From: Methylopila sp. M107
GTDB lineage: Bacteria; Pseudomonadota; Alphaproteobacteria; Rhizobiales; Methylopilaceae
DNA: 64,000 bases
Reading direction: 5' to 3'
Assembly (NCBI RefSeq): GCF_000384475.1
Contig: NZ_ARWB01000001.1
Location: 3,351,039-3,415,038 of the forward strand
In this document: in pieces, positions 5,055-47,690 of the stretch
Layout: every line of letters begins with the position of its first letter
How positions within the stretch are numbered: position 1 is the stretch's first letter
Program-made: the position numbers and the translations under genes
The notes under the pieces: model-generated
Seen by the model: only the letters and a program-made list of their open reading frames with translations
The model's database searches: none
What the model was told of the DNA's origin: nothing

Positions 5055-5252
5055 CACGCAACGCTCCCTCTCGGTGCGGCGCAAGTCCGCCGCAAGGTTA
5101 CGCGCCCTCTGATCCCTGAACTGTTTTGGCGGCGCGCCGGTTCCCCGTGGGGGGAGCCTTACGATTGACTTTGCGGGCGACTGCGCGAGTTAGGCCGGCG
5201 AGGGGCGAAGTCGCCGCGCCTGTTCGGCGCGCACTCCGCAGGAGCATTCGAC

Positions 5253-5645
5253 ATGCGCATCGCGCTTGCCGCCGCCGCTTTGTCGGCATTTGTTGTTTCG
5301 GTTCCGGGCGTCGCGTCGGCGCAAGGGGTCGTGATCGAGGAGCGTCGCGATCCGGAGATCGTCGTCCGCGAGCCGGAGGAGCGCGTCATCGTGCGCGAGC
5401 CGCGCGAGCGGGTCGTCGAGGAGGAGCGCGTCCAGGTGCGCCGCGCGCCGGATTCGGTCCGCCGCTATGTCATCGAGGAGCGGCGCCCGTCGGTGCGCTA
5501 CGAGCGCCGCGTCGTGGTGGGCGACGTGCTGCCCGACGACGTCGAGCTGCATGACGTGCCGGATTCCGACTATGGCTACACGGTGCTGAACGGCCGCCGG
5601 GTGGTGGTCGACGACAACCGCCGCGTGGTCGACGAGTTCGACTGA
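5253..5645 (+). CDS. Secreted DUF1236-like protein with charged repeats
   Basis: 130 residues. The signal peptide (MRIALAAAALSAFVVSVPG, cut near ASA-Q) is followed by imperfect Glu/Arg/Val repeats (REPEERVIVREPRERVVEEE) and a C-terminal domain with VGDVLPDDVELHDVP and YTVLNGRRVVVDDNRRVV, which resembles DUF1236 of rhizobial exported proteins. A periplasmic or outer-envelope location is predicted; the function is unknown. GGAG lies about 10 bases upstream of the ATG. It ends 5 bases before the convergent porin gene. Confidence 0.75.
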   Translation: MRIALAAAALSAFVVSVPGVASAQGVVIEERRDPEIVVREPEERVIVREPRERVVEEERVQVRRAPDSVRRYVIEERRPSVRYERRVVVGDVLPDDVELHDVPDSDYGYTVLNGRRVVVDDNRRVVDEFD

Positions 5646-5650
5646 AGGCT

Positions 5651-7042
5651 TCAGAACGTCACGATCGTCGTCACGCCGAACACGGTCGCGTTGGGGATGC
5701 GCGGGCCGCCGTCCTCCGGCGGGCCGCCGCCCGGGCGCATGACATATTGGAACGTCGGCGCGACCGTCATGCCGGGCAGAACTTGCGCCTTGTAGGTCGC
5801 CTCGATCTTGGCCTCGTAGCGGCGGATCGCGCCGTCGGCCGCCGCCCGGTCGACCGCCGCCAGGCCCGGCGAAAAGTCCGCCCAGGCGACCGCGACGCCG
5901 GCGAGGTCGTCGGGCCGGCCGGGCAGGAGCCCCTTGGCGGTCAGGCCGCCGTCGACATAGGCCGAGATCGTGTTGCGGTCCTTCGGGCCCCAGACGGCGC
6001 GCAAGAAGAAGCCGATTCCGCGCTCCGGATCGTCGCCCGAGAAGCGCCAGAGCTGCTGGTCGAGCACGGCGTAGAGGTTGAGGTTGCCGTCGTGGCGGCG
6101 CGGGTCGTCGTTCGAGCCGGGCGCGCCCAGCGTCAGGCCGTCGGTTCCGCGCTTCAGGTCGTCGAAGTCTCCGAAATGACCGTAGCCGCCGAGCTTCAGC
6201 TTCGCCGGCAGGCCGCCAAGGCCTTCGAAGCGGTAGCGCGCCTCGGCGATCATGAAGGGCGGGTCGCCCAACCGGAAGTTCAGCCCGTGCGGGTTCGCCT
6301 TTTCGGCGTCGAGCGCTTTGGGGCGCGCGGCGTATCCGTTGTAGATCGCGCCGATGACGGTGAGGCGGTCCGAAACGTCGTACTGCGCCTGCGCGCCCAG
6401 GACCGCGAGCGGATAGGCCGGGCCTTCCTGCGGCAGGTTGAGCGAGGGGGCCGCGGCCCAGCCGAAGGTCGCGCCGATGAAGACCTGTTCTGCGTGGTCG
6501 GAGATGAAATACTCCTCGTCCGAAGCGAGCTGTCCGAACTTCAGCGTCAGATTTCCGAGCTTCTGCTGGTAATAGGCCTCGAACAGGCGGGTGGTGGGGC
6601 GCGCGCCGATGTCGTTCACCGACAGGACGTTGCCGATATACTCTTCCGACAGGTCCCGGCCGTGGATCTGCAGCATGTCGACATGGACCGAGGCGTCCTT
6701 GACGCCGGCGATCGTCTCGAGGTCGGCGTCGATCGCGACCTTGAGCAGGCCGCTATAGGTCGCGCCCTCGCGCATGCCGCCGTGGAGGTTGGCGCGCGGG
6801 TCGGAGAAGTAGAAGCCGGAGAAGGTCAGGCCCTTGGCGGCGAGCGCGTCGCGGGCGTTTTTGATGGGGCCGAGCGCCGGGACGCTGTCGAGGATCGACG
6901 GGTCGCGGTCGTCGTCGTCGTCCTGCGCCGGAGAGGCGACGGCTGACCCCGGCTTCGCGTCGTCGTCGTCGGCCATCGCGGGCGCCGGGGCGATCGCCGC
7001 CAGCAGCGCCGCTGCAAATCCCGCCCGACTGAGACGCCGCAT
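5651..7042 (-). CDS. OprB-family carbohydrate-selective porin
   Basis: 463 residues from the ATG at 7042, which opens a signal peptide (RRLSRAGFAAALLAAIAPAPAMA); an upstream in-frame ATG at 7126 would put a long arginine-rich leader before it. The mature protein begins with a short acidic stretch and then GLTFSGFYFSDPRANLHGG, and continues with alternating beta-strand patterns typical of OprB/CarO porins (for example LEAYYQQKLGNLTLKFGQLA and a strand-like terminus ending VTTIVTF with C-terminal Phe). Outer-membrane uptake of sugars is the usual family role. No sugar-metabolism genes are adjacent, so the substrate cannot be inferred. Confidence 0.85.
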   Translation of the reverse strand: MRRLSRAGFAAALLAAIAPAPAMADDDDAKPGSAVASPAQDDDDDRDPSILDSVPALGPIKNARDALAAKGLTFSGFYFSDPRANLHGGMREGATYSGLLKVAIDADLETIAGVKDASVHVDMLQIHGRDLSEEYIGNVLSVNDIGARPTTRLFEAYYQQKLGNLTLKFGQLASDEEYFISDHAEQVFIGATFGWAAAPSLNLPQEGPAYPLAVLGAQAQYDVSDRLTVIGAIYNGYAARPKALDAEKANPHGLNFRLGDPPFMIAEARYRFEGLGGLPAKLKLGGYGHFGDFDDLKRGTDGLTLGAPGSNDDPRRHDGNLNLYAVLDQQLWRFSGDDPERGIGFFLRAVWGPKDRNTISAYVDGGLTAKGLLPGRPDDLAGVAVAWADFSPGLAAVDRAAADGAIRRYEAKIEATYKAQVLPGMTVAPTFQYVMRPGGGPPEDGGPRIPNATVFGVTTIVTF

Positions 7043-7167
7043 GCCGTTTCCCCGAAGTCCGCGTCTCTCGCGCGCTTCGCGGGACCATGCGTCGAGGGCG
7101 CCGCCACGCGCAATGCGACGGCGCAACGAAACACATTAAGTGATTTCTAAGCGACAGGTTCGTCTTT

Positions 7168-7322
7168 CCCTTCTCCCCTTGCGGGAGAAGGTGGCCGGAG
7201 CGTCAGCGGAGGTCGGATGAGGGGTCCGGTTCCGGATTGGACGCCGCGCTCGACGCTCGCTGTCGCGCATTATCCGGAAGCGGACCCCTCACCCTTACCC
7301 TCTCCCACAAGGGGAGAGGGGA
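7168..7322. repeat. Palindromic intergenic repeat, copy 1
   Basis: Starts with the hairpin ccttctccccttgcgggaga and ends with ccctctcccacaaggggaga; the inner arms gatgaggggtccggttcc and ggaagcggacccctcaccc are also complementary, so the whole unit can fold on itself. A second copy follows directly in the same orientation (7343-7493). Confidence 0.85.
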
Positions 7323-7342
7323 GGCGGAGGCGTTGCGGTCTT

Positions 7343-7493
7343 TCCTTCTCCCCTTGTGGGAGAAGGTGGCCTCGGCGGAGCCGAGGTCGGATGTGGGGTC
7401 CGGTTCCGAAATGGGCGCCCCGCTCGACGCTCGCGATCTGCGCTTGATCCTGAAGCGACCCCTCACCCTTACCCTCTCCCACAAGGGGAGAGG
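7343..7493. repeat. Palindromic intergenic repeat, copy 2
   Basis: Same architecture and near-identical arms to the copy at 7168-7322, with differing central bases (ctcggcggagccgaggtcgg instead of the copy 1 core). The two tandem copies fill most of the 604-base gap between the porin start and the efflux adaptor gene. Confidence 0.85.
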
Positions 7494-7598
7494 GAGACGG
7501 AGAGGTCGCGTTCACGCTGTGGTTCGGACCGCCAAATTTCTGCTGCAACGCAAAAATCGTCGGCCTGCGCGCCTTGACTTTCTTCCTTCCGAAAACCA

Positions 7599-7625
7599 TA
7601 CCTATCGGTACGATACCAATCGGTA
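7599..7625. promoter_or_regulatory. Tandem TetR-type operator upstream of the efflux operon
   Basis: Two 12-base near-palindromes, TACCTATCGGTA (7599-7610) and TACCAATCGGTA (7614-7625), lie 22 bases before the adaptor start codon. A related word, TACCGACCGATA, sits just upstream of the TetR gene at 14014. This supports repression of both by that TetR; inferred, not shown. Confidence 0.62.
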
Positions 7626-7646
7626 CACATTTCGGGACGCTTACAA

Positions 7647-8849
7647 ATGTCCAGCAGGTTTTCACGCCTCGGCCGCACGGCCGCGGCAACGGCTGCGCTC
7701 GCTCTGGCGGGCGTCGCGATCATCTCGTTCGAGGCCGGGCCCGATAGCGCCCCCGCCAAGGCCGCGGCCGCCGAACAGGCGACGCCGGCTTCCGTGGCGC
7801 GGGTGGAGAAACGGCCGGTCGCGAACTGGTCGGCGTTTTCCGGCCGGCTCGAGGCGGTCGACCGGGTCGAGATCCGGCCCCGCGTCGCGGGCGAGGTGAT
7901 CTCGGCGCAGTTCCGCGAGGGCGCAATCGTCAAGCGAGGCGACGTGCTGTTCTCGATCGACCGCGCGCCGTACGCGGCGGCGGTCGACCGCGCGAAGGCT
8001 GAGGTCGCGGCCACGGAAGCGCGCGCAAAGCTCGCCCGGGCCGATCTCGACCGGGGCCGCAAGATGACGTCGATCGCGATCACCAGCCGCGATCTCGACC
8101 AGCGCGAGAGCGAACTGCGCTCGGCGGAGGCCGCCAAGCAGGGCGCGGAGGCCGCGCTCCGCTCGGCCGAGCTCGACCTCGGCTACACCGAGATCCGGGC
8201 GCCGGTCGCGGGGCGCGTCGGGCGCATCGAGGTGACGCAGGGCAATCTGGTGGCGGCCGGTCCCGGCGCGCCGGTGCTGACGCGGCTTGTCTCGGTCGAC
8301 CCGATCTACGCCAGCTTCGACGCCGACGAGCGCGCCGTTTTGAAGGCGCTCGACACGCTTCCCGAAGGCGTCGAGCGCAGCGCCGCGATCGGGGCCATCC
8401 CGGTCGAGATGTCCACCAATGCGGGCGGCGCGACGGCGCGCGGCAAGCTGCAATATGTCGACCCCTCGGTGCAGGCGGCGGCCGGCACGGTGCGGGTGCG
8501 GGCCGAGTTTCCGAACCCGGACGGCCGGCTGTTCCCGGGCCAGTTCGCGCGGCTGAAAATGGGCGAAGCGAAGGACGCCGACGCCGTGCTGGTCAGCGAG
8601 CGGGCGGTCGGCGTCGACCAGGACAAGAGCTTCGTCCTGGTCGTCGGCGACGACGACCGCGCGGCCTATCGCGAGATCCGGCTCGGCGCGTCGGCGGATG
8701 GGCTGAAGATCGTGCTGGAGGGTCTGTCCGGCGGCGAACGCGTGGTGGTCGAGGGACTGCAGAAGCTCCGCCCCGGCGCGCTCGTCGCGCCCCAGCCGGT
8801 CGCGATGAACGGCATGAAGCTCGACCAGCGGCAGGCGTCGGTGAAGTAG
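7647..8849 (+). CDS. RND efflux periplasmic adaptor (membrane fusion protein)
   Basis: 400 residues. An N-terminal hydrophobic segment (AAATAALALAGVAIISF) serves as signal or anchor. It is followed by the HlyD-type barrel-sandwich/lipoyl half (RVEIRPRVAGEVISAQFREGAIVKRGDVLFSID), a coiled-coil hairpin of about residues 105-165 rich in Ala/Glu/Arg, the second lipoyl half (LGYTEIRAPVAGRVGRIEVTQGNLV) and a beta-barrel. Length and order match AcrA/MexA-type adaptors that connect an inner-membrane RND pump to an outer-membrane channel. The pump gene follows at 9085; no outer-membrane channel gene is nearby, so a channel encoded elsewhere is probably used. Operator-like repeats lie just upstream. 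Confidence 0.92.
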   Translation: MSSRFSRLGRTAAATAALALAGVAIISFEAGPDSAPAKAAAAEQATPASVARVEKRPVANWSAFSGRLEAVDRVEIRPRVAGEVISAQFREGAIVKRGDVLFSIDRAPYAAAVDRAKAEVAATEARAKLARADLDRGRKMTSIAITSRDLDQRESELRSAEAAKQGAEAALRSAELDLGYTEIRAPVAGRVGRIEVTQGNLVAAGPGAPVLTRLVSVDPIYASFDADERAVLKALDTLPEGVERSAAIGAIPVEMSTNAGGATARGKLQYVDPSVQAAAGTVRVRAEFPNPDGRLFPGQFARLKMGEAKDADAVLVSERAVGVDQDKSFVLVVGDDDRAAYREIRLGASADGLKIVLEGLSGGERVVVEGLQKLRPGALVAPQPVAMNGMKLDQRQASVK

Positions 8850-8859
8850 GCGAGGGGCG

Positions 8860-9001
8860 TTCCCCTCCCCCTTGCGGGGAGGGGCCAGGGGTGGGGGTGG
8901 CGCCGAATGACGCTCAGAAGTTGGGCGTATGGCGGCTGCGCGCTCCCGGCCATGTTCTGAACCACCCCCACCCCTAGCCCCTCCCCGCAAGGGGGAGGGG
9001 G
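8860..9001. repeat. Long inverted repeat between the two efflux genes
   Basis: Left arm cccctcccccttgcggggag...aggggtgggggtgg pairs with right arm ccacccccacccct...ctccccgcaagggggagggg, separated by about 60 bases. The transcript of the efflux operon would carry a very stable stem here, between the adaptor and pump genes. Confidence 0.85.
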
Positions 9002-41055: not shown

Positions 41056-42297
41056 TCAGGCCGGCCCCGCCATCAGCGCCTTCGGGTCGTCCGCATGGAC
41101 GACGAGTTCCGGCGAGGGCGACCTGCCGGCCTCGATCAGCCGCTTGGCCACCATGTAGACGCGGCCGTCATTGACGGCGTCGACGGCCAGAAGCTCTTCG
41201 CCCCGATAGTACCAGAACGACCGCGCGGCGCCGGCGCCCGGGCGGGTCACGACGCGATCGTAGCCGGACGACAGGCCCGCGATCTGCAGCTTGACGTCGA
41301 ACTGGTCGGACCAGAACCAGGGCTTCGCCGCGAAGCCTTCGGAACGGCCCAGAATGCTCGCGGCGGCCGCCTCGCCCTGATCGATCGCGTTGCCGACGCT
41401 TTCCAGCCGAATGCGTTGTCCGCGCCAGAGAAACGAGGCGCAGTCGCCGACGGCGAATATAAGCGGGTCGCTCGTCGCGAGATGCGCGTCCACCAGCACG
41501 CCGTCGTCCGTCTCCAGCCCGGCGGCGACCGCGAGCTCCACATTGGGCTGGACGCCGATCCCGACGATCGCGAAGTCGACGGCGATCCTCGCGCCGTCGC
41601 CAAGCGTCGCATGGTCGATCCGGCCATGCGCGCCGCCGAGCGACGCCAGCGTCGTCGCCTCGCGGAGATCGACGCCGTGCGAGCGATGCAGCTCCCTGAA
41701 GAAGGTCGAGGTCTCGGCGGCGGCGACGCGGCCGAGAATGCGCGGACCCGCCTCGATCAGAGTTACGTCGAGCCCGAGCTTGGAGGCGACCGCCGCGGCC
41801 TCGAGGCCGACATATCCGCCGCCGACCACAAGCGCGCGCCGTCCCGGCCGGAACGCGCCGGACATGGCGGCGATGTCCCGGATCGTGCGGATCGCATAGA
41901 CGCCGTCAAGTTCGCCGCCGATCGCGGCCGGGAGGGTTTTGGGACGCGCGCCGGTCGCGAGCACGAGGCGCGCGTAGGGGAAGGCGCGGCCGTCGGCCAG
42001 AACGACCTCGCGGCTCCGCCTGTCGATGCGTTCGACGCGGGCAGAGAGAAGCAGCTCGATGTCCTTCTGGGCGTAGAAGGACGACGGCTTCAGCAGCAGC
42101 CTGTCCTCGCTCATCTCGCCGAGCAGATAGGCCTTGGAGAGCGGCGGGCGTTGATAGGGCGGGCTCGCCTCCTCGCCGATGAGGGCGATGGGGCCGGCGT
42201 GTCCGAAATCGCGTAGCTTCGCGGCGGTGGAGAAGCCGGCCTGTCCCGCCCCGACGATCACCACCGGCGCCGCGCCATCCATCGGTTCCGCGTTCAT
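41056..42297 (-). CDS. Ferredoxin-reductase-like FAD flavoprotein
   Basis: 413 residues. FAD motif IVGAGQAGFSTA, second Rossmann motif VVGGGYVGLEAAAVASKLGLDVTLIE for NADH, then FAVGDCASF and the C-terminal SVGNAIDQGEAAAASILG. It belongs to the rhodocoxin/putidaredoxin-type reductases that pass electrons from NAD(P)H to a [2Fe-2S] ferredoxin for P450s or dioxygenases. No ferredoxin gene is adjacent; the P450 gene (43133-44368) lies beyond the PdxH-like gene, so a functional link is possible but not shown. Confidence 0.9.
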   Translation of the reverse strand: MNAEPMDGAAPVVIVGAGQAGFSTAAKLRDFGHAGPIALIGEEASPPYQRPPLSKAYLLGEMSEDRLLLKPSSFYAQKDIELLLSARVERIDRRSREVVLADGRAFPYARLVLATGARPKTLPAAIGGELDGVYAIRTIRDIAAMSGAFRPGRRALVVGGGYVGLEAAAVASKLGLDVTLIEAGPRILGRVAAAETSTFFRELHRSHGVDLREATTLASLGGAHGRIDHATLGDGARIAVDFAIVGIGVQPNVELAVAAGLETDDGVLVDAHLATSDPLIFAVGDCASFLWRGQRIRLESVGNAIDQGEAAAASILGRSEGFAAKPWFWSDQFDVKLQIAGLSSGYDRVVTRPGAGAARSFWYYRGEELLAVDAVNDGRVYMVAKRLIEAGRSPSPELVVHADDPKALMAGPA

Positions 42298-43132: not shown

Positions 43133-44368
43133 TCAGTCGAAGAGGACGTTCAGCCTGTCCGAGAAGGCGCCGCGCTTGACCAGCCGGCCGCCGGGCGCGT
43201 GCCTCAGGTTCTTGCGGCGCAGCAGCGGCTTCAGCATCAGGGGGAGGAGCGCCTCGTTCATGCGCGCCCCGAAGCACATGTGCCGGCCGAGCCCGAAGTG
43301 GATGAAGGCGTTGGCCGGCCGCGCCGGATCGAACGTTTCGGGCGCCGGAACCCGCCGGCTGTCGCGCATCGCTGAGCTGAACGCCACATGCACGGTCGCG
43401 CCATTCGGGACGTCTGTGGCGCGGCGCGTTCCTTTCGCGATGACCTGGTCGCCGAGCGCGACGCGCGGCAGCGCGGGCGCGAGCGGGTCAAACCGCATCG
43501 CCTCGAACACGACGCCGGCGAGCGCGGCGTGGTCATTGGCCCGCGCGGCGAGCTGCGCTCGCTCCAGTTCCGTGGGACGGAGGAGCAGCTGTTCCAGCGC
43601 CTGCGGCACGACCATCGGGGGCTGCGGGGGCCCGCCGACCATGAACCCCATCAAGGCGGTGCGGATCTTCACGTCGCTGAACTCATCCGGGCGCGCCGGC
43701 TGGAGCGCGAGGCAGCGGCCCAGCACGTCGTCGACCGTCCGGCCGGATTGCTTGCGGGCCGCGATCTCCCCGTCGATATGCGCGCGCAGCGCAGGAGCGA
43801 TCTCGTCGACCTCCTTGCGCAGGTCCGGGTCGTTCCCGAAATCGGCGAACTGGAACTCGAACAGCCGCGTCGCCCAGACCTTGAGGTCGTAACCGTCCGG
43901 CGTCGGAACGCCGAGATAGTCGCTGTAGACATCAAAGGTCACGCGGCGGACGAGCTGGTCGACGACTTCGAGCTTTCCGTTTCCCGTCGCCACGATCGCC
44001 TCGGCGGCCGACTCGACATGAGGCGCAAGTCGGTTCGGGATGTCGGGGGCCAGCACCACATCGCGCATGGCGCGCACGTCGGCGTCATGCGCCTTCGGGT
44101 CGTCCATCCCGAGGAAGAACGGCTCGCCGCCCATGATCACGTCGAGCTTGTCGCGATAGGGCACGCCGAAGCGGTCGTCGCTGAGATAGACCTCGCGCAC
44201 GTCGTCGTAGAGCGTGACCGCATAGGTCCGCTTGTAATGGGGGATCGGCCACAGCCGACGCAGGGCGCGGAACACGAGGGGATACTTCGAGAACGCCCAC
44301 GCCCCGAGCGCCGCCTTGGCGCCGGTCGCGCCCGGGCGCAGCACGTCCTTTGAGGCCAGCGCGCTCAC
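43133..44368 (-). CDS. Cytochrome P450 with non-canonical I-helix
   Basis: 411 residues from a GTG at 44368 overlapping the upstream stop. Heme-thiolate motif FGLGRHMCFG with Cys365 (FxxGxxxCxG), ExxR helix FEAMRFDP (Glu289, Arg292). The I-helix segment reads GFMVGGPPQPPMVV (around 241-255): the usual acidic residue and Thr that deliver protons to O2 are missing and it is proline-rich. P450s that lack this pair usually handle peroxides or rearrange hydroperoxides (CYP152-like, CYP74-like). Its operon partner is a peroxidase. Third gene of the operon 47690-43133. Substrate unknown. Confidence 0.9.
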   Translation of the reverse strand: MSALASKDVLRPGATGAKAALGAWAFSKYPLVFRALRRLWPIPHYKRTYAVTLYDDVREVYLSDDRFGVPYRDKLDVIMGGEPFFLGMDDPKAHDADVRAMRDVVLAPDIPNRLAPHVESAAEAIVATGNGKLEVVDQLVRRVTFDVYSDYLGVPTPDGYDLKVWATRLFEFQFADFGNDPDLRKEVDEIAPALRAHIDGEIAARKQSGRTVDDVLGRCLALQPARPDEFSDVKIRTALMGFMVGGPPQPPMVVPQALEQLLLRPTELERAQLAARANDHAALAGVVFEAMRFDPLAPALPRVALGDQVIAKGTRRATDVPNGATVHVAFSSAMRDSRRVPAPETFDPARPANAFIHFGLGRHMCFGARMNEALLPLMLKPLLRRKNLRHAPGGRLVKRGAFSDRLNVLFD

Positions 44369-46020
44369 AGCGACGCCAGATAGTTGAGCGCCGGAAGGCT
44401 CGGCAGGAAGAAGTACTCGCCCCCGACCATCTCGACGAAGGTGTCGACGGCGACGATGCGGCGGAGAGGCTCTTCCCGGATCGTGAAGCCGCCCTCGGGG
44501 CCGATCAGCGGGTCGGCCTCGTCGAACAGCGTCGCGAAGTTGCGGTTCATCAGCCAGGTCTGCTGGACGAACTCGAACTGCCGCTCGATGTCGGTGTTGA
44601 GGCAGATGAACAGCAGGCCGCGGTCGGCGCCGTCGGGCGTCCGGAGGTCGGCGATGTCGGACCCGTACTTCCGGCCGCGCCTGAGGATGCGGTGGTTGTT
44701 CGCGGCGTCCCGCAGCGTCTTCTGGGAAGCCGCGCTCGGGGCGAGCGCGTCGCGGGGATTGGCGCGCCTGACATGCGAGCCGGGCGGGCAGCCGAGGCCC
44801 TCGGGATCGTTCTCGAAGAACCCGAAATCGTTGTCTATGCAGTTCGCCGCCGTCGGCTTCAGATAGCCGCCGGGACACAGCATGTGGCCGGCCCGGCTGC
44901 GGCCCACGACACGCTCCGCCAGCCAGTCCGCGGTCACGTGGGTCGCGGTCGGATCATGCGCGACGATCCTCTTGGCGTTCGCGTCCATGGCGTTCCAGAA
45001 CGCCGCGACGTCCTGCCGAAGCTCGCGGACGACCATATACGAACCGTCGAGCCCGAAATTGAGAAACCCCTCCGGCGCGCCGTCGGCCGTCAGGCCGGCG
45101 TTCAGCCCGTCGTCGCTTTCAGCGACGAGCGGGCCGGGCGCGTTCTCGCGGTGGCCGTTGACGTGGCCGATCAGGATCTCGCCGAGCGGCACGCCGTGCA
45201 GCGGGTCGCGCTTGGCGGGCGTTCCATCGTCGAGCTCGATGTCGCCGTCCTCGGCGTCGACGTCGCTCTGCAGGCCGAACGGGATCGGTTGCGACAGGCC
45301 GTCGGCGAATCCGAAATGCTCGTAGCCGACGCCGGCGATCTCACGCAGACTCAGCTTCAGGCTGCGTTCGACGACGACGTCACGGGGAGCGAGCGCCGTC
45401 TTGACGTCCTCCTTCCATTGGGCCGCCTCGTCCTCCGTCGCGCAATAGAGCAGGAGGAGCGCATGGACGGTCTGCGGCGTCGGGCCGGGGCCGGGGTCGA
45501 ACGCCATGCTGGATCTCTGGTCCGGCGCCATCGCGGCGCCGAGTTCCGGCTGCCTCGCGCCGGCCGCGACCTGGACGGCCGCGACATTGCCGCTCCATTC
45601 CGGGCCGCCCGGAATGACCGTGCTGAGCCACCCTTCCGGATTCCGGTCCCCGAGCCGGCGAAGCCTGTCGACGTCGCACATGCCGTCACGGAACGGCTCG
45701 GAGAACGTCTGCAGAGCCGGTTCGTCGAGGCCGAGCTTCCTCATGCCGAGCCAGGTCAGCGCGACGATCGCGGCGCGCGGATCGGCGCCGTCGGAGTCCG
45801 TCGGCGGCGCGGCGTCCATGAGCGCCTTCAGGGCCGCGCCGCGTTTTTCGTAGGGCTTGTCGCCGGGGCCCGGTTTCCAATCGAACCTGAGGAAGAGGGC
45901 CTCGGAATAGGGCAGCGCCCCGAAACCGGTCACGACGATGCCCTGCGCCTGCCGGTCGTGCGGCGACTTGAGCCTCCAGCCTTTCGGCTTGCCCGGCGCC
46001 GTCACAGGTCCCTGGCCCAT
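44365..46020 (-). CDS. DyP-type heme peroxidase (long form)
   Basis: 551 residues. DyP signature GFADG at 237-241 (distal Asp240), proximal His416 in GCPPGSHVRRANPRD, and distal Arg in HRILRRG (443-449). The family usually spans 300-500 residues; this one is at the long end with extra segments. No signal peptide, so cytosolic unless it is encapsulated or membrane-associated. It overlaps the upstream membrane-protein gene by 19 bases and the P450 gene by the GTGA stop/start, so the three are translationally coupled. Oxidizes substrates with H2O2 or organic peroxides. Confidence 0.92.
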   Translation of the reverse strand: MGQGPVTAPGKPKGWRLKSPHDRQAQGIVVTGFGALPYSEALFLRFDWKPGPGDKPYEKRGAALKALMDAAPPTDSDGADPRAAIVALTWLGMRKLGLDEPALQTFSEPFRDGMCDVDRLRRLGDRNPEGWLSTVIPGGPEWSGNVAAVQVAAGARQPELGAAMAPDQRSSMAFDPGPGPTPQTVHALLLLYCATEDEAAQWKEDVKTALAPRDVVVERSLKLSLREIAGVGYEHFGFADGLSQPIPFGLQSDVDAEDGDIELDDGTPAKRDPLHGVPLGEILIGHVNGHRENAPGPLVAESDDGLNAGLTADGAPEGFLNFGLDGSYMVVRELRQDVAAFWNAMDANAKRIVAHDPTATHVTADWLAERVVGRSRAGHMLCPGGYLKPTAANCIDNDFGFFENDPEGLGCPPGSHVRRANPRDALAPSAASQKTLRDAANNHRILRRGRKYGSDIADLRTPDGADRGLLFICLNTDIERQFEFVQQTWLMNRNFATLFDEADPLIGPEGGFTIREEPLRRIVAVDTFVEMVGGEYFFLPSLPALNYLASL

Positions 46021-47690
46021 AGGACCGCCTCCTTGGCCGACAGACGCGGCTTCCTCAGCCCTTCGGCGATGCGGTGATGGCGCTCGATCTGGTCGACTGT
46101 GAAGTCTTCATAGGCGCTGTACCAGAACCGGCTGATGGTCATGGAGTGGCGCGCCCACTGCTTGAACTTGCGGCCGTGGCTCGCTCCGTCCAGCACCAGG
46201 AAGCGGGTCGGGGGAAAGCCCACGCAGCTGCCCCAGGCGAGCGTCAGCCCGCCATGCGCCTTCTCGATGAAATCGTCGAGATAGCTCGACCAGCTGTGGT
46301 CGAAATTGCTGAAGAACATCAGCCGGCTGCCGTTGTCGACGAAGGCCCAGTGGGCGAAATGCACGGTGCGCATGCTGCCGAGATAGCCGTCCGTGGCGAC
46401 GACCCGCAGCAGCAGATGAAGGCCGAGATGGCCGGTCAGGAACAGCCCCATCCTGAGGACGCCCGGCTTCACATGGGTCAGGCTTCCCATGTGGTTCTGG
46501 GCGACTCGGTCCTCCCGCAGCGCCATGCCGCTCAGCAGTTCGGGATCGACCGCGGGCGCGTCGTGGAAGGCGTCGCGGCGCTCGAGCAGGCGCAGCCAAA
46601 GCACGACGGCGGGCAGCGCGAAGACGATTGCGGCGAACAGGCCGAGCGACACGTTGCGGACCGACGGCTCCCAGAAATCCCGGAACGCCCCGTCGGACAG
46701 CGCCGCGGTGGCGAGGGCGCCGACCGTCGAGACCAGCGCGACGTAGACGACCAGCGCCACGACGACGACCACGGCGAGCGTGATGGGGTTCGCCAGCGAG
46801 GCGACGCTGTTCTTGCGGGACAGGCTCGACGGATCGAGGCCGCCTGACGGCGCAGGCGCTCCCAGGCCCTCGTAAGGCGCCCGGACGCGCCAGATGGCCA
46901 TCACCAGGACGATCCCGAGAACCGTGAAGAGCAGCAGGAACCGAAGCCAGGAATCGGCGATCAGCGCGACCGCGATGCCGGGGATCGAGAGCGCAAACAA
47001 CGCCGCGAACACGAAGGCGACGAGGCGGAGGATGTCGACCGCCCGCTCAAGCGCCGGAAACCGGGCGGGGGCCGGCGCGGCGAGCCAGGCATGGCCGGGC
47101 AGCAGCGCCTGGCGAAGCATCGCGTGGACGCCTTCGGCGGGCTGACCGCGATACGGATTGGGCGACAGAGGGTCCGGCTGCGCCAAAGCCTTTCGCGTGG
47201 CGAGAAAGAGCTCGCCCTCCTGCAGGATCACATTGCGTTCGAGACCCCGGTTGCCGTGATGGAAGACGCTCGGCCTGATGCTCTTGAGCTCGAAATAGGC
47301 CGCGAGCGGCTGGCGCGAGTCGTGTGCGGTCACGGCGTCGTAGAGCGGCCCGCCGCCGTCCGCCGGCCGCTTGCAGCAGCGCAGCATCAGGCGCAGCAGA
47401 CAGTCGTCGTGTGCAGGCCCGCTCGCGGCGGCTTCGAGCTGCGCCCAGAACGGACCCGGCGGACCGTCGAAATTCGCCTCGATCACGAAGACCGGATCGT
47501 AGTCGGCGCTGGTGAACACGCTCATCGACATGAAGTGCAGCAGCGGCGCCCGGTCCCTCAGCGCCGAATAGCGCGCGCCGGTTGGCGACTTGGCCTCATG
47601 CAGCGCCTTGAATGCGTCGATGAGCAGCTTCAGCCGCTCGATGCTCTGCGGCTGAACCTCCAACGCCACTGACAACGTCGTCTGCGCCAC
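46002..47690 (-). CDS. Four-TM protein of unknown function, first gene of the peroxidase operon
   Basis: 562 residues from a GTG at 47690 (an ATG at 47783 would add a non-conserved leader). N-terminal soluble domain (about 1-210; LLHFMSMSVFTSADYDPVFVIEANFDGP), then four TM segments at about 219-243, 249-269, 302-329 and 348-370, then a C-terminal soluble domain (about 395-562; RTVHFAHWAFVDNGSRLMFFSNFDHSW, IEKAHGGLTLAWGSCVGFPPTRF). Both soluble halves resemble the alpha/beta ferredoxin-like halves of the DyP-type fold, but I see no heme His/Asp motif. It could be a membrane scaffold for the peroxidase/P450. The recognition of the family is by eye; function unproved. Confidence 0.8.
   Translation of the reverse strand: MAQTTLSVALEVQPQSIERLKLLIDAFKALHEAKSPTGARYSALRDRAPLLHFMSMSVFTSADYDPVFVIEANFDGPPGPFWAQLEAAASGPAHDDCLLRLMLRCCKRPADGGGPLYDAVTAHDSRQPLAAYFELKSIRPSVFHHGNRGLERNVILQEGELFLATRKALAQPDPLSPNPYRGQPAEGVHAMLRQALLPGHAWLAAPAPARFPALERAVDILRLVAFVFAALFALSIPGIAVALIADSWLRFLLLFTVLGIVLVMAIWRVRAPYEGLGAPAPSGGLDPSSLSRKNSVASLANPITLAVVVVVALVVYVALVSTVGALATAALSDGAFRDFWEPSVRNVSLGLFAAIVFALPAVVLWLRLLERRDAFHDAPAVDPELLSGMALREDRVAQNHMGSLTHVKPGVLRMGLFLTGHLGLHLLLRVVATDGYLGSMRTVHFAHWAFVDNGSRLMFFSNFDHSWSSYLDDFIEKAHGGLTLAWGSCVGFPPTRFLVLDGASHGRKFKQWARHSMTISRFWYSAYEDFTVDQIERHHRIAEGLRKPRLSAKEAVLWARDL

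Follow-up and report, generated by a model that had tools for sequence, protein, structure and literature searches.

A recurrent bacterial gene module joining a membrane protein with a DyP-type peroxidase and a cytochrome P450: a possible peroxide-driven enzyme system

Heme peroxidases and cytochromes P450 are known to cooperate in eukaryotes. The fungal dioxygenase-P450 fusions (linoleate diol synthases, allene oxide synthases, CYP6001-type enzymes) and the pairing of cyclooxygenase with thromboxane or prostacyclin synthase bring together a heme peroxidase-class protein and a P450, and the P450 part of the fungal fusions is described in the accessible part of PMC13049297 as self-sufficient and as having unusual I-helix-region residues close to the heme. 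In CYP5619 of oomycetes the P450 is N-terminal and the peroxidase C-terminal; its partner is described as a peroxidase/dioxygenase of the fungal kind and not a DyP, the protein is eukaryotic, and the available portion of PMC5919972 reports no membrane barrel. Bacterial fusions in which two oxidative enzymes act in turn on fatty acids include the cyanobacterial catalase-lipoxygenase and catalase-heme dioxygenase proteins (PMC11719350, as far as its available text goes), which contain neither a P450 nor a DyP. None of the matches listed from the open PMC literature, which mostly leaves subscription papers outside, was seen to deal with an operon or a fusion of DyP and P450.

The locus described here lies in a window of 64,000 nt of Methylopila sp. 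M107 (contig NZ_ARWB01000001.1 of GCF_000384475.1, positions 3,351,039-3,415,038, forward), which is the whole stretch of DNA that was analysed. Its features, in window coordinates, are as follows.

46002..47690, minus strand: MEM, membrane protein of 562 aa with GTG start, four transmembrane helices set between two ferredoxin-like halves (predicted), family without a name
47196..47690, minus strand: N-terminal ferredoxin-like half of MEM, residues 1-165
46575..47054, minus strand: four hydrophobic helices of MEM, residues about 213-372
46005..46529, minus strand: C-terminal ferredoxin-like half of MEM, residues 388-562, the most conserved part of MEM
44365..46020, minus strand: DyP-type heme peroxidase of 551 aa, no signal peptide (by eye)
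45298..45312, minus strand: GxxDG motif of the DyP (GFADG, residues 237-241, with Asp240)
44773..44775, minus strand: His416 of the DyP in GSHVRRANPRD, proximal heme ligand by alignment to solved DyPs
43133..44368, minus strand: cytochrome P450 of 411 aa, GTG start
43613..43636, minus strand: I-helix motif GGPPQPPM of the P450, residues 245-252, with Pro248-Gln249 at the acid-alcohol site
43268..43297, minus strand: heme-thiolate loop FGLGRHMCFG of the P450, residues 358-367, with Cys365
46002..46020, minus strand: overlap of the MEM and DyP reading frames, 19 bases
44365..44368, minus strand: overlap of the DyP stop and the P450 start (GTGA), 4 bases

The initial annotation had described an overlapping trio, and the positions of the three open reading frames on the minus strand as well as both overlaps were reproduced. 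No sigma-70-like promoter site was detected, and the one terminator-like site was at chance level. The G+C content of the module (67-70%) is the same as that of its flanks and thus gives no compositional sign of recent transfer.

To see how far the trio extends, species-representative genomes were scanned with MEM only, which yielded 65 loci, mostly from Sphingomonas and relatives, further from Rhodospirillales, Rhodobacterales, Methylobacterium and Caulobacteraceae, and from a single Pseudomonas, a single Citrobacter and one record labelled Acidobacteria. Two loci end inside MEM; all 63 that extend past it carry a DyP, including one partial gene at a contig end and one (L059) reduced to a remnant, its locus being broken up into several reading frames. 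A possible DyP start codon inside the MEM end was present in 59/62 loci tested. Absence of the trio from other genomes, which the initial annotation had named as refuting its reading, is contradicted by these loci: an adjacent, co-directional P450 follows in the same order and strand in 51 of the 65 loci, and the three parts are even found fused. This recurrence of order and strand exceeds chance. A P450 is near but otherwise placed in two loci (partial in L004, upstream in L005), absent from the available DNA of nine, six of which have more than 6 kb downstream, and unscorable in one. The linkage of MEM, DyP and P450 is solid, and it is the chemistry and the substrate that we infer below.

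Within the genus, MEM was found in 1/13 genomes (the window's own only) and within the family in 2/18. In a sample of 398 genomes of the phylum, own genome included, 25 had a match to MEM, 18 to the P450 at E<=1e-40, and 14 to both. Accordingly, 11 of the 25 MEM genomes had no P450 match at this threshold, one of which (G351) has a more distant P450; among the four P450-only genomes, the G371 locus has a DyP and a weak companion, and no DyP occurs in the stretch read of G052, G183 and G192. Reading of 16 loci around MEM or companion matches revealed a P450 in nine and none in seven, and 11 of 22 MEM plasmid records were missing from the P450 matches listed, which are 30 of 49. In an empty-site comparison within the genus, the flanking 2OG-oxygenase gene gave one match, a distant one, in 12 congeners. 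The occurrence of the module is patchy, and its movement between genomes is probable, although its base composition is that of its flanks.

In the window the peroxidase and the P450 are encoded by separate, overlapping genes; in relatives they are joined in one chain, as in the fungal proteins. A single P450-MEM-DyP polypeptide was found in nine examined loci, namely on plasmids of Pararhizobium qamdonense (1446 aa), Novosphingobium aromaticivorans (pNL2, 1464 aa, fused protein WP_011907039) and Sulfitobacter sp. CB2047 (1644 aa), and also in six genomes (L105, L106, L107, L110, L166, L167). The three plasmid fusions retain the DyP motifs GxxDG and HxRxxNPR, whereas the hydrophobic stretch of their MEM part is shortened. 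A MEM-DyP fusion beside a separate P450 is encoded in another four loci (L104, L148, L159, L162). In other lineages small proteins replace MEM: L130-L132, L136-L138, L161 and L163 combine a weakly MEM-like companion with a DyP and a P450, and a ninth locus, L146, encodes a companion of 171 aa. Between two companion types, compared from seven and four loci, a profile match was found (hhalign 98.0), and the first type matches the C-terminal half of MEM (98.1); the values for the second type (67 against the C-terminal and 29 against the N-terminal half) are not decisive. Thus its parts are combined as overlapping genes, as fusions with a different order, or as genes apart from each other. By eye, the second companion of L131 has a hydrophobic stretch of its own.

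By its motifs and predicted fold, the middle protein is a member of the DyP-type peroxidase superfamily, with predicted heme binding and activity. It scored 27.4 bits against PF20628 (cut-off 20) and, just below the cut-off of 100.5, 92.1 bits against TIGR01413; its predicted fold is the DyP double barrel. The catalytic Asp240 and the proximal His416, which align with those of solved DyPs, are each kept in 63/63 rows of the alignment of module DyPs. Its close solved relatives include the Deinococcus radiodurans DyP (8re2), AnaPX (5c2i) and a fungal DyP (2d3q), which we take to belong to the long class, and the window protein is about 100 residues longer than these. In contrast to long-class DyPs, in the loci studied it adjoins, or is fused with, MEM or a small companion.

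MEM matched no Pfam or NCBIfam family above cut-off and gave no significant PDB-sequence match, so that in the libraries scanned (Pfam, NCBIfam) it represents a recurrent family without a name. Its predicted model consists of two beta-alpha-beta-beta-alpha-beta units with four long helices between them, giving a ferredoxin-like double barrel in tandem arrangement that the membrane helices interrupt, which as a predicted model fits the ABM branch of the dimeric alpha+beta barrel superfamily. From the ABM/SchA-like double-barrel proteins (WhiE-ORFI, 9lmn and 9ltx) it differs by the four membrane helices between the halves, by an identity of 8-10% and by the lack of a Pfam match. The initial annotation had seen a four-TM protein with peroxidase-like halves. 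The four hydrophobic regions stand; since the model shows two ferredoxin-like units, "peroxidase-like" is right at the level of the broad fold superfamily only, as the halves gave no significant profile match to each other or to the DyP domains, and no DyP appeared among the matches listed for the MEM fold. RND pumps, which ranked top in Foldseek, were set aside as relatives of MEM because of low probability and an rmsd near 30.

As the fold superfamily of MEM includes heme degraders of the IsdG type (PMC4835899, in its available part), the locus could be a heme or iron module, in which MEM is a membrane-bound relative of heme-degrading ABM barrels, the DyP is deferrochelatase-like, and the P450 performs a side reaction or acts as a sensor. 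DyPs of the EfeB type are relatives, a TonB-receptor ORF follows the module in L108, and 14 loci, most of them from Sphingomonas, share an ORF cluster to which an ORF of L108 belongs (L108 alone was scanned). TonB receptors, however, have many substrates. The DyP is closer to the D. radiodurans, AnaPX and fungal enzymes than to EfeB, and no iron-uptake family was found among the best 25 of 85 families from 70 neighbour proteins. We regard this explanation as very unlikely; an iron or heme uptake operon is not supported, the TonB-receptor ORFs of the Sphingomonas-type loci included.

The third protein belongs to the P450 superfamily, with 47.5 bits against PF00067 (cut-off 22.8), a conserved EXXR motif (EAMR) and the cysteine heme loop FGLGRHMCFG; of the four matches to the P450 model in the window genome it is the weakest. 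Its I-helix reads MVGGPPQPPMVV, so that the canonical acid-alcohol pair of monooxygenases is replaced by Pro248 and Gln249. Of 54 aligned P450s, 53 have Pro248 and 52 have Gln249. L073, in which no DyP was seen and whose plasmid record begins 140 bases upstream, deviates at both positions, and L005 deviates at Gln249. Fused P450s (GFVPTN, GFGPTT and similar) and those encoded beside small companions (GAIPTT and similar) have likewise lost the acid and often keep the alcohol; the distant DyP-linked P450 of L099 reads SHPVT. By comparison, L001, another P450 of the window genome, has the usual GHETT.

The CYP152 fatty-acid peroxygenases are also bacterial and also have the acid-alcohol pair replaced (PMC5818669, available text). 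The initial annotation had cited CYP152 and CYP74 as peroxide-using P450s; the Arg-Pro motif of CYP152 is absent here, and the module P450s have Pro-Gln in the window and Pro-Thr in relatives. The P450 might be a peroxygenase driven by H2O2 in its own right, with the DyP as a safety valve that removes or controls H2O2 near the membrane and no intermediate passed between them. A missing acid, as in CYP152-type peroxygenases according to the part of PMC5818669 at hand, and the intact active-site motifs of the DyP are consistent with this. The absent Arg-Pro, the occurrence of MEM-DyP without a P450, and the fixed-partner fusion with a dedicated membrane barrel, which is more than a peroxide scavenger needs, argue against it, and we consider it rather improbable.

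Loss of the I-helix acid was compared with linkage to a DyP in a P450-seeded set of 31 genomes, comprising all non-window matches from searches at E limits of 1e-40, 1e-30, 1e-35 and 1e-35. One genome (G995) cannot be scored. In 24 genomes the locus contains a DyP, and at the acid site 21 of these P450s have Pro, one has Ala (G305) and two have Asp (G420, G649). The acid is therefore lost in 22/24 linked P450s and kept, always as Glu, in 6/6 unlinked ones (naive Fisher p 4.7e-5). In the P450 tree, the six unlinked proteins group together as one clade, with G420, G649, L104 and the long-branched G305 close by. On this tree the acid state changes twice and linkage once, leaving one independent pair, so that no sign test can reach significance. 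The association between acid loss and DyP is thus clear in counts and weak as evolution, with one or two changes on the tree, and loss of the acid falls short of proving peroxide use by the P450.

Most P450s use redox partners (PMC5818669, in the available portion). A putidaredoxin-reductase-like gene (41056-42297, Pyr_redox_2 and Reductase_C) lies on the same strand, 0.8 kb downstream of the P450. Served by this reductase or by partners encoded elsewhere, the P450 could be a monooxygenase, with DyP and MEM active in parallel in an oxidation or in heme handling. Asp-Thr is kept in three DyP-linked P450s (G420, G649, L104), and the frequent alcohol residue of fused and small-companion forms also fits a monooxygenase. 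On the other hand, an opposite-strand PNPOx-like gene separates the reductase from the P450, the reductase had at E<=1e-20 no match in the other loci compared and matched only the window's own genome, and the acid is lost in nearly all linked P450s. In limited searches (best 25 of 85 neighbour families; ferredoxin matches listed), no conserved redox-partner gene was found beside the module; a ferredoxin-domain (Fer2) ORF about 3 kb from the fused module in G303 was the only such case within 5 kb among the matches listed. A conventional monooxygenase therefore appears unlikely to us. The peroxide-driven P450 of the initial annotation is in part upheld, by the I-helix without acid and the lack of a conserved partner in these limited searches, and qualified by the reductase-like gene nearby.

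The reading that we prefer, to which we give an about even chance, is a single membrane-bound enzyme module, a heme relay with a DyP acting on a lipophilic substrate and a peroxide-using P450. The three proteins, presumably in a complex also where they are unfused, would be located at the inner face of the cytoplasmic membrane; this location is suggested by the lack of a signal peptide on DyP and P450 (by eye) and by the even number of MEM helices, which places both MEM halves on the same side. MEM would anchor the module and probably give access to the lipophilic substrate. The DyP, with its catalytic motifs intact, would react with peroxide and oxidise this substrate, with a hydroperoxide or a radical as the possible product. 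Devoid of the proton-relay acid, the P450 would then use peroxide instead of NAD(P)H and a redox partner, either a hydroperoxide from the DyP (isomerase-type, by analogy to the fungal dioxygenase-P450 fusions) or H2O2 (peroxygenase-type). Such a cascade is plausible and better supported than before, and is still a proposal.

By analogy, the fungal dioxygenase-P450 fusions are the nearest functional model. The partner in the fungal and COX systems belongs to the peroxidase-cyclooxygenase superfamily, in contrast to the bacterial module, which has a DyP of unrelated fold, a membrane barrel protein and a predicted chemistry; because its peroxidase is a DyP, the module is not a member of the fungal DOX-P450 family. 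Tentatively, the cascades of cyclooxygenase with P450 and of fungal dioxygenase with P450 might have in it a prokaryotic counterpart that evolved independently from a DyP: a membrane-anchored, reductase-free heme relay producing oxidised lipids with a signalling or protective role, where acid loss in the P450 accompanied its coupling to the DyP. The module points to what may be a peroxide-driven enzyme system of bacteria that has gone unrecognised. Should the DyP supply the peroxide on which the P450 works, the P450 system would be complete in itself and need neither NAD(P)H nor redox partners, as is wanted in biocatalysis. A group of bacterial DyPs would gain a physiological job, and the combination of peroxidase and P450 that makes eicosanoids and fungal oxylipins would have arisen a second time from unrelated parts.

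Neighbouring genes were also inspected. Among the best 25 of 85 families, from 70 of 179 neighbour ORFs in 30 loci, no family had more than three members and no recurrent fourth gene emerged; the 70 ORFs were those nearest to the loci, and most TPR regulators and companions were not among them. Beside 12 loci (six of the 12 scanned) lie TPR regulators whose ends are of cyclase, SARP-annotated, winged-helix or TIR type; they presumably represent a general regulator class. The P450 had no phage match. An anti-phage system was dismissed, as the three window proteins had no PADLOC match at E<=0.001; the patatin of L136 matches CBASS-type phospholipase models, yet a patatin is found beside the module only in the genus of G264 and G276. 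There it lies between DyP and P450, in this one genus of the 32 genomes searched. A Tle1-like phospholipase domain adjoins the P450 in G371 only, glutathione-transferase-like genes follow the P450 in G118 and G790, and G127 has a companion-DyP pair next to a RoxA-like di-heme peroxidase, its 6.8-kb stretch containing no P450. Each of these neighbours is confined to one or two lineages, and together they lean towards a lipophilic substrate.

TPR proteins with exchangeable N-terminal parts flank 12 loci, where they lie 5' of seven fused genes (MEM, the four-helix membrane protein, and DyP, with or without P450, in one ORF) and 3' of five unfused sets. Their N-terminal types are class III cyclase, SARP (annotation-based), winged helix and TIR. 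The modules may be regulated by these adjoining proteins, among them:

L069, 2085-3845: TPR protein
L070, 2068-3753: TPR protein
L071, 2117-3745: TPR protein
L110, 2129-3904: TPR protein
L044, 13783-15780: TPR protein
L036, 12534-14189: TPR protein

At two loci the DyP and P450 genes are separated by a gene for a patatin-like phospholipase, which matched CBASS-type lipase models:

L137, 2664-3671: patatin-like phospholipase
L136, 6708-7739: patatin-like phospholipase

Further oxidative, redox or transport genes were found near modules:

Window, 41056-42297, on the strand of the P450 gene and 0.8 kb away from it: putidaredoxin-reductase-like FAD protein
L100, 2689-4083: RoxA-like di-heme cytochrome c peroxidase
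L108, 10638-13622, immediately after the module: TonB-dependent receptor

When the FAD protein was compared with the remaining loci, nothing matched it at E<=1e-20. The peroxidase gene adjoins a pair of DyP and its companion (a small protein in the place of MEM), with which no P450 was seen in the fetched stretch of that locus. One ORF cluster with a member in L108 recurs in 14 loci, mostly of Sphingomonas.

Two loci carry apparently incomplete modules:

L072 (Rhizobium ruizarguesonis pRlX3), 5230-8297: segments of MEM and DyP spread over two frames that overlap
L059 (Methylocapsa acidiphila), 7638-8923: MEM broken across frames, DyP reduced to a short start

The former, in whose stretch no P450 match was obtained, is perhaps a decayed copy, and the latter looks degraded.

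An extended P450 was also observed:

L104, 3278-5341: P450 ORF with ~300 additional N-terminal residues

P450 was the sole Pfam domain found in this ORF, which weakly matched a GST-like protein from another locus (phmmer 5e-10).
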